A stretch of DNA of 64,000 nt from Syncephalastrum monosporum B8922 (taxonomy: Eukaryota; Mucoromycota; Mucoromycetes; Mucorales; Syncephalastraceae). The notes under the pieces are model-generated. The model was not told where the DNA came from. It saw only the letters and a list, made by a program, of their open reading frames with translations, and did not search any database. The DNA lies in contig JNEN01000885.1 of NCBI GenBank assembly GCA_000697355.1, positions 372,001-436,000 of the forward strand. The letters run 5' to 3'. The translations under genes were made by a program, and so were the position numbers. Each line of letters begins with the position of its first letter. Within the stretch, counting starts at the first letter, position 1. This document shows, piece after piece, positions 43,680-46,228 of this stretch.

Positions 43680-43881
43680 GGTTCCATCCTATCACAATGA
43701 GAAACGTCTCAATTCCCAAGAACCCTTGCAGGGTGCTGTCGTATTCGCAACTCGCTGAGTGCTGTACAAATTAACCTTTCCGTACGACAATGTGTAATCG
43801 ACTGGGATAGGTGTGTCGTATCCTTGTGCGTGCCGCATCTATAAAAGTAGAATGGTTGTACAGCTAATCAACTCGTAATTA

Positions 43882-44160
43882 CAGTTCGTTACCTTTGATT
43901 GAGCAAGTGCCCTGAAAATGAGCAACTCCCCAAAAATAAGCAACACTCCAAAAATGAGCAAGTACTCTGAAAATGAGCAAGCACTCTGAAAATGAGCAAG
44001 CACCTCGAATATGAGCAGCACGGCGAAAATGAGCAACGTAACGCAAAGTGAGCAGACAAAATATACAAACTTTTATGGATTGGGAGAGTCATTTAATACA
44101 CTTGATACACTTGATACACTTTGTCGCGATCTCATTGGCTGTCATTTTGACCTTTTTTTT
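43882..44160 (+). repeat. left terminal inverted repeat
   Basis: Nine units of GAGCAA(G/C) with a period of 18-19 bp start at 43901, 43920, 43938, 43956, 43975, 43994, 44013, 44031 and 44050, separated by CTCTGAAAAT-like spacers. They are followed by a unique 40 bp, three copies of a GATACACTT repeat, and TGTCGCGATCTCATTGGCTG leading to a T-run. The same series, inverted, is at the right end. Confidence 0.85.
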
Positions 44161-44604
44161 CCTCACACTCTGCCTTCATTTCGTTTTTTTTTTTTTTTTT
44201 TTTTTTTAAATTCTTTTTTTTTTTTTTTTTCAAATGCTTCTCTTTCTCAAGTTGATTCCATGATGAGCAGACAAAATATGAAAAGCGCGTACAAACTTTT
44301 AATGGATTGGGAGAGTCATTTAATACACTTGATACACTTGATACATTTAATACACTTGATACACTTGATACACTTGATACACTTGATACACTTGATACAC
44401 TTGATACACTTGATACACTTGATACACTTGATACACTTGATACACTTGATACACTTGATACACTTGATACACTTGATACACTTGATACACTTTGTCGCGA
44501 TCTCATTGGCTGTCATTTTGACCTTTTTTTTTCTCACACTCTGCCTTCATTTCGGCTTTTTTTTTTTTTTTTCAAACGCTTCTCTTTCTCAAGTTGATTC
44601 TATG
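44055..44604 (+). repeat. tandem duplication and 19-copy 9-bp repeat in left arm
   Basis: The segment from CAGACAAAATAT through the T-run to TCAAGTTGATTC(C/T)ATGA occurs twice, at about 44055-44265 and 44267-44604. The first copy has three GATACACTT units; the second has 19 (44322-44492). Both end with the same sequence just before an ATG, so the leader of the gene was duplicated together with the inner part of the arm. T-runs of more than 15 nt are at 44185-44230 and 44557-44572. Confidence 0.8.
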
Positions 44605-44609
44605 ACAAC

Positions 44610-45734
44610 ATGGCAACAGAAGAAGGTATGTGTATTCTTCAAACGCATTTATTTTTTCTTATAAATTAAGTTCTTTTTGTATTAGACTTGGATCAATTAT
44701 TGACATTTAAGCTCCCAACTGATCAATTGCCTGGCAGTGATCTAATGTCCAAGGCCATCTTGAAAACGAATCAAGTCGTGGATTTGATATCTCATGCCGT
44801 GCTGGACGTGCCTCCTGGAACGTATACCGCAATCGCCAACACGGAATGGAACGACGGCACCCGCTCCGACGTCGTGTACATTCCCCGCCTCGCGATCAAT
44901 CATTCTTTGCCTCCTTTCCTCATCGAGATTCAAAACACCGTGAACGAAAACTTTTTACATCGAATTATCCAATACAGCATCAACATCAAACGCGTTTACA
45001 ACATCAAGCCGATTGTGATTATCTTCTGCATCGAAGGTATCAGTCCTGCTGCCATTCTTGACCATTTTCAGCCATCACCAAGCGGAGCCTGGTTGCGTTC
45101 CTGCACCGTTCATCATTTCTGGGCCGAAGACTGTCTAATGGTGGGTCCATGCACCTTGCCTTCGTCCAGTGAAACTTCCATGACACCCATGCTTGCCCTG
45201 GCTCGCTTCTTCATCGAACAATCACCGTCGTTATTTGGCCACAGCTGTGCCGAGAACGACACGATTCGCCTGCTGTATGGGATGGCAAAAGATATCGTTT
45301 TGCAAACCAATGAATCCAAGTACAATTTCGTCGACGCCATGGATACGATCTGCGACACAAATCTCACTCTTTGGAAGCAAACTCAAGATACCATCAACAA
45401 GCCGGGAAAGCAAGCAAAAGTGATTGATCGCGCTCTGGACTACAATCGAAGACTCAAACAACGATATTCCCAGCAGAATGACGAATCAAGCAGCCAAGAG
45501 TCTCTCGAAGAACCTGTGTTTGCTTCGTTAGCAGGTCCCTCATCCTCATCTCAATCATCAGCACACTTACGTGATGAAGAAACAAACTTTGTCATCAATT
45601 TCCGCAAAAAACGAATCGGTCGAATGAATTGGAGTGCATGTCTTGCTGCAGGTCGCAAGGTTGGTCTTTTCTCGTATTATGCTAATGCTGCAAGCTTGCG
45701 TGTGAATTACCGCAAACATATCAAGAAATATTGA
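44610..45734 (+). CDS. element-encoded PD-(D/E)XK-like nuclease (putative)
   Basis: Two exons, a 16-nt first exon 44610-44625 (MATEE) and 44686-45734, give 354 aa (frame sum checked). The ATG follows the duplicated leader. Around residues 55-120 the pattern fits the PD-(D/E)XK fold of Rpn/YhgA-like nucleases: RSDVVYIP with Asp67, a beta strand PPFLIEIQ with Glu86-x-Gln88, a helix NENFLHRIIQYSINIKRVY, and a strand KPIVIIFCIEG. The D...ExQ version replaces D...ExK, as in Rpn. A middle helical part and a Ser/Gln-rich linker lead to a basic C-terminus with KKRIGRMNWSACLAAG and YYANAASLRVNYRK, which looks like a DNA-binding helix-turn-helix. It is the only gene of the element and the best candidate for its mobility enzyme. 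No DDE motif or zinc finger is seen. The family call is inference from motifs alone. Confidence 0.6.
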
Positions 45735-45799
45735 CCAGTCATTGCACCACGAGACTGTTTCGACAATATGAATGCGGATTTGTACATGAATTTTTTTTT

Positions 45800-46162
45800 A
45801 AAAAAAAAAAGGTCAAAATGACAGCCAATGAGATCGCGACAAAGTGTATCAAGTGTATCAAGTGTATCAAGTGTATCAAGTGTATCAAGTGTATCAAGTG
45901 TATCAAGTGTATCAAGTGTATTAAATGTATCAAGTGTATCAAGTGTATTAAATGACTCTCCCAATCCATAAAAGTTTGTATATTTTGTCTGCTCACTTTG
46001 CGTTACGTTGCTCATTTTCGCCGTGCTGCTCATATTCGAGGTGCTTGCTCATTTTCAGAGTGCTTGCTCATTTTCAGAGTACTTGCTCATTTTTGGAGTG
46101 CTGCTTATTTTTGGGGAGTTGCTCATTTTCAGAGCACTTGCTCAATCAAAGGTAACGAACTG
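45800..46162 (-). repeat. right terminal inverted repeat
   Basis: It mirrors the left arm: an A-run, GGTCAAAATGACAGCCAATG, twelve copies of AAGTGTATC (45842-45949, two of them variant), then the inverted GAGCAA units, read here as TTGCTC about every 19 bp, to the terminal CGAACTG. The difference in 9-bp copy number from the left (3 plus 19 against 12) shows that this array varies in length. Confidence 0.85.
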
Positions 46163-46228
46163 TATCAGAGGAGTCTGTAACCGCACAGTGTCACCACGTT
46201 TTATTTTGTCTCCTTCATGTTACAAAGC

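Follow-up and report, generated by a model that had tools for sequence, protein, structure and literature searches.

A TA-flanked inverted-repeat element of Syncephalastrum monosporum with an Rpn-like PD-(D/E)XK nuclease gene and no DDE transposase gene

THE ELEMENT AND ITS ENDS

The window analysed here, 64 000 nucleotides of contig JNEN01000885.1 of Syncephalastrum monosporum B8922, carries an element of 2281 bp (positions 43882–46162) whose one intact spliced gene encodes a protein of 354 amino acids (Table 1). The inverted ends start with CAGTTCGTTACC at 43882 and finish at 46162 with its complement, GGTAACGAACTG. The two arms differ at only 2 of 237 nt (positions 30 and 62), and with the flanking TA included they form 242 nt of 99% identity; near-identical arms of ∼240 nt are no chance event. 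A preliminary description of this DNA, made from the sequence alone, had claimed a terminal inverted repeat (TIR) element with such ends and TA flanks, and these measurements bear it out.

TA is present on both sides of the element, whose ends were detected at this one locus of the 27.5-Mb assembly. When the two flanks were joined as they would be in an empty site, they matched the focal locus only; because the assembly thus offers no empty site, the TA could belong to palindromic ends of the element rather than to a duplication.

Each arm contains nine repeats of ∼19 bp with the core TGAGCA, which in one of them reads TAAGCA. The inner side of both arms is adjoined by tandem arrays of a 9-bp unit (ATACACTTG and its complement), and within the 268 kb examined, arrays of at least 10 units of 9 bp occur only here and at two further loci of the same gene family, L033 and L034. 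A GATA core seemed by eye to recur in the 9-bp units, but to no greater extent than chance would allow.

Table 1. Features of the focal element (window coordinates) and facing pairs of DDE genes elsewhere in the genome (contig coordinates)
Feature	Position	Strand	Basis
TA flank, left (putative target-site duplication)	43880..43881		
Left TIR, starts CAGTTCGTTACC	43882..44121	+	
19-bp iterons in left TIR	43900..44036	+	
9-bp tandem array ATACACTTG, 18.9 copies, separated from the start codon by 117 bp	44323..44492	+	
Exon 1, MATEE and one base of codon 6 (16 bp)	44610..44625	+	
Phase-1 GT-AG intron (60 bp), GTATGT...TTAG	44626..44685	+	
Exon 2 with stop codon; Rpn-like PD-(D/E)XK protein	44686..45734	+	
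PD-(D/E)XK core, exon-2 residues 29–119	44769..45041	+	predicted structure, alignment
C-terminal three-helix, HTH-like region, exon-2 residues 291–348	45555..45728	+	predicted structure, alignment
9-bp tandem array, inverted copy, 11.9 units	45842..45948	-	
Right TIR, terminates in GGTAACGAACTG	45923..46162	-	
TA flank, right	46163..46164		
Facing DDE pair, C117	97676–101959		
Facing DDE pair, C94	46658–52051		
Facing DDE pair, C147	213437–216811		
Facing DDE pair, C73	88249–90846		
Facing DDE pair, C73	214160–216602		
Facing DDE pairs, C165	42378–48317		
Facing DDE pair, C20	82472–85438		

THE NUCLEASE GENE

The element has no DDE gene, and its other open reading frames of at least 50 amino acids are repeat-derived or overlap the nuclease gene. 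Three queries, two of which are DDE_3 by Pfam, found no match in the window at E 1e-3, in a genome that has 70 match rows for PF13358. The preliminary description had been right in reading a single intact spliced gene without a DDE transposase, and likewise in the catalytic motif that it named: D67 and E86-x-Q88 are present (exon-2 residues D62, E81 and Q83; R98, discussed below, is exon-2 R93). In a 21-row alignment the non-gap rows retain D67 in 18 of 19 cases, E86 in 19 of 20 and Q88 in 17 of 20; the motif residues are kept across the Mucorales.

The predicted structure of the exon-2 protein presents the helix and strands in the order of the PD-(D/E)XK fold, followed by three C-terminal helices. 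In this model the core runs helix-strand-strand-strand-helix-strand, the D standing before the second strand and the E-x-K/Q on the third; the preliminary description had proposed to abandon its reading if structure prediction lacked such a core. The top five Foldseek chains for the model were of NucS, EndoMS and MspJI. A sequence search of solved structures reached at best E 0.071 with a profile and gave no match with the single protein. Among 21 copy pairs that passed a filter (alignment score 90, 40 codons, synonymous difference <0.7), some with few codons or near-saturated dS, dN/dS ranged from 0.07 to 0.54.

An hhalign run (A4 against five Rpn proteins) placed D67, E86-x-Q88 and R98 opposite D63, E82-x-Q84 and R94 of Escherichia coli RpnA. 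The D, the E-x-Q and the later R of Rpn/YhgA-like proteins (Transposase_31, PF04754) thus recur in the focal protein at identical spacing (19, 2 and 12 residues), and by eye the D-x-x-x-K near the N-terminus is shared as well. The alignment scored 33.9; reversed profiles gave 27.2 and 26.7, and none of 40 column shuffles exceeded 23.4. Its probability was only 23%, with a P of 9e-4 for the one pair. According to passages of PMC5350276, the RpnA residues aligned here are needed for RpnA activity.

The focal protein nevertheless differs from bacterial Rpn in lacking a match to PF04754, in its place within a eukaryotic TIR element and in the intron of its gene. With PF04754, hmmscan gave no match for the focal protein at E 10 or for 10 family members at E 1, and a search of the genome at E 10 found none, the positive control having given matches in 2 of 14 genomes. 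PF12784 also found nothing in the genome; since no control genome gave a match either, that search is uninformative. For rpn genes themselves, a preprint (PMC10327210) states that no target-site duplications were found.

RELATED COPIES

In a tblastn search of the genome the gene proves to be multicopy: 37 merged nuclease loci were found, mostly fragments. They combine 45 matches with the focal protein (E ≤1), the weakest possibly due to chance, and 45 with its Parasitella relative P0003 (E ≤0.01). Only 4 of the 45 focal-protein rows span more than 240 of the 354 residues, and two of these contain stops; many of the remaining rows are short, and the copies examined are broken into pieces in different frames. 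The fragments are scattered over many contigs, several copies lying <5 kb from contig starts.

All named relatives belong to the Mucorales (Rhizopus, Parasitella, Lichtheimia, Radiomyces, Cokeromyces, Thamnidium, Circinella, Absidia and Mucor). They come from database searches, two of which scored the best 8000 candidates, and taxonomy was checked for one species per genus. Viral and prokaryote collections, searched with patterns from single proteins, yielded no relatives.

The second intact nuclease gene, at L033 on C125, shares 39% identity with the focal gene across the BLAST match and has a 67-bp intron after a first exon of 40 bp, in phase 1 like the focal intron after its 16 bp. The gene is surrounded by inverted repeats of 114 nt (97%), 107 nt (83%) and 27 nt (93%) and preceded by a 9-bp array of 17.4 units, so the layout resembles that of the focal element with a different TIR sequence. 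Its outer arms are only 83% alike, and the right one is interrupted by an inverted insertion with TA on its flanks; the searches gave no additional copy that would set the boundary of this element. The insertion (L033 6087–6191) is an inverted repeat of ∼106 bp with ends CTGGATTTCCACTTTCATTTT. At L034, a broken nuclease gene has an 18-unit 9-bp array upstream.

Other arrangements were seen among the copies. At L036 and L042 the nuclease-gene copies are inverted (palindromic), with repeats of up to 652 nt (90%) at L042. L039 1–1123 and L047 307–2534, near the starts of contigs C82 and C193, are 96% alike and possibly subtelomeric; L047 also has a self-similar stretch.

SEARCH FOR OTHER ELEMENTS WITH THE FOCAL ENDS

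A DNA search of the 27.5-Mb assembly with 199 bases of the TIR, by a method that skips simple repeats and very common words, returned the two focal copies only. The 20-mer of the focal end, with up to three mismatches allowed, occurs at six sites including the two focal ones, against six for a reversed control. The 14-mer variant TACAGATCGTTACC made up five of the 11 sites found, where the reversed control gave 15. One copy lies near a DDE_3 match, and the sites were considered as those of a Tc1 relative and rejected as a host gene: the copy examined, which is 94–99% identical to the other four over 337 bases, encodes a stretch that we take to be ATP synthase beta.

The preliminary description had also looked ahead to copies with the same ends that carry a DDE transposase, which would make the focal element a passenger; none was found in the genome. 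The 5′ regions of two DDE genes, at L038 and L062, align with each other, and with the focal TIR they share only short chance stretches (the longest 16 nt, 88%, E 1.6).

NEIGHBOURING DDE GENES

The transposase at L038 is an open stretch of 313 amino acids that matches DDE_3 at E 5e-29, and DDE_3 genes of this type (L38-type) number 128 match rows, or 88 merged loci, in the genome. At both C148 and C117 the DDE gene is preceded by what is presumably the 3′ end of a cyclophilin gene (L038 6601–7125 and L062 1–40), so the repeated unit may include a piece of a host gene.

Nine of the 37 nuclease loci have a DDE gene no more than 4 kb away, making 10 pairs where 0.95 would be expected from a uniform spread, a crude control because transposon-rich regions cluster. 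In all 10 the DDE gene is directed at the nuclease gene; the two share a strand in four pairs and are on opposite strands in six. The pairs at C38, C80 and C14 look like related forms of a single arrangement, and the independent cases are therefore fewer than 10; L043 is a weak further case. L38-type genes on opposite strands and at most 6 kb apart face each other in eight of eight pairs (Table 1), two of which share one DDE gene at C165, and in the pair at C20 they bracket the nuclease gene of L034. These pairs give the impression of long inverted arms that carry the transposase and enclose a variable middle. In the C117 pair, the 251 bases sampled from the middle hold a short repeat common to several other loci and no nuclease gene. 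From the directed pairs and C20 it follows that some members of the nuclease family are located within, or next to, facing arrangements of Tc1 type. Neither the focal element nor L033 gave a DDE match.

At L051 3790–3970 there is a short inverted-repeat element, flanked by TA, whose ends read CAGTAGCC. Similar DNA occurs at L036 4936–5037, L046 4966–5076, L043 5076–5177, L029 1953–2034 and L063 1–134, and thus in several nuclease-gene loci and in the middle of the C117 pair.

DISCUSSION

CAGT ends with TA are hallmarks of Tc1/mariner (IS630) elements, left by their DDE enzymes. The focal element has both, in a genome with many DDE_3 genes, and departs from that group in having no DDE gene and in its TIRs of ∼240 nt with 19-bp iterons and 9-bp arrays. 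Another comparison is with elements that encode YqaJ, a PD-(D/E)XK relative. Passages of PMC4482050 describe ISL2EU (PHIS superfamily) as eukaryotic TIR elements with a 2-bp A+T target and a YqaJ nuclease ORF, adding that most autonomous candidates also encode a DDE transposase and that the duplication is AT. The focal element likewise belongs to a eukaryote, has TIRs and a nuclease ORF, and is bordered by a putative 2-bp A+T target; where ISL2EU joins a DDE/THAP transposase to the YqaJ ORF and duplicates AT, it has no DDE ORF and is flanked by TA. In Tn7, TnsA has a DDE partner, TnsB. TnsA is a PD-(D/E)XK enzyme that acts in transposition as part of a heteromeric transposase, according to PMC10327210; unlike Tn7, the focal element encodes no partner and no second gene. 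The authors of PMC10327210 know of no autonomous transposase with a PD-(D/E)XK fold. In the open-licence literature we came across no description of a eukaryotic TIR element whose single gene is Rpn-like.

Because a nuclease gene takes the place of the usual transposase, either the nuclease helps to move the element or the enzyme of another transposon does. We lean towards the former, judging it somewhat probable that this is a DNA transposon with TIRs, of a Mucorales family, whose Rpn-like PD-(D/E)XK nuclease helps to cut its ends; the estimate covers a nuclease acting alone and one acting with a DDE partner, less a little for the details of binding. The protein would contribute to mobility by binding the TGAGCA iterons of the TIRs through its C-terminal helices and by cutting at the TA-flanked ends with its nuclease domain. 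The element might then be joined to a new TA by host repair of a 2-nt staggered cut that the PD enzyme makes alone, or by a DDE transposase of Tc1/IS630 type acting in trans, in the role that TnsB has beside TnsA. That the nuclease acts alone, by whatever chemistry, is quite possible though short of probable. The specific form of this idea, a new eukaryotic superfamily in which an Rpn-like enzyme binds the iterons, cuts at TA with a 2-nt stagger and leaves the ends to host end-joining with no DDE chemistry, is tentative and somewhat unlikely. A partnership with a Tc1-type DDE enzyme we hold to be rather doubtful.

The DDE neighbourhood is what speaks most strongly against a nuclease that works as a transposase by itself. 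It also favours a non-autonomous element of Tc1/IS630 type that a TA-specific DDE transposase would mobilise in trans, with the nuclease as cargo or as an accessory remaining from an element that had both a DDE and a nuclease gene. The CAGT ends and TA fit such a passenger, as do the abundance of L38-type genes (128 match rows, 88 merged loci), the 10 pairs found for 0.95 expected, every one pointing at a nuclease gene, and the eight facing pairs with the bracketed gene at C20. However, both intact copies seen, the focal one and L033, are free of DDE matches; no sequence elsewhere in the genome was found to resemble the focal ends, the best lead having been a host gene; the 5′ regions at L038 and L062 meet the focal TIR by chance stretches only; and C38, C80 and C14 are perhaps copies of one event, in a genome whose transposon-rich regions could bring both kinds of gene together. 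We regard this passenger status as a substantial chance but not the expected outcome. An ordinary family of duplicated host nuclease genes, defence or effector-like, with one by chance inside a long inverted repeat, is improbable: the position of several copies near contig starts would suit it, and two papers describe Rpn proteins as bacterial anti-phage toxin-antitoxin systems (PMC10327210) and REase domains in CRN effectors (PMC5289972), but the clean TA-flanked ends, the iterons within the TIRs, the like layout with a different TIR sequence at L033 and the scatter of fragments over many contigs argue against it. The same small chance covers every explanation beyond the nuclease alone, the partnership and the passenger. 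The preliminary description had offered either a new PD-(D/E)XK transposon or a captured nuclease gene; the TIR element, the Rpn-like gene with C-terminal helices and its multicopy state stand, while the DDE neighbours oppose a transposon driven purely by the PD enzyme.

If the nuclease that we favour as a cutter of the ends moves the element, it would represent a new chemistry for cut-and-paste transposition in eukaryotes. Should it depend on a partner of Tc1 type, the pair would be a eukaryotic counterpart of TnsA/TnsB whose DDE family differs from the one in ISL2EU. In both cases the name ‘transposase_31’, puzzling for Rpn proteins, is tied to a real TIR element.
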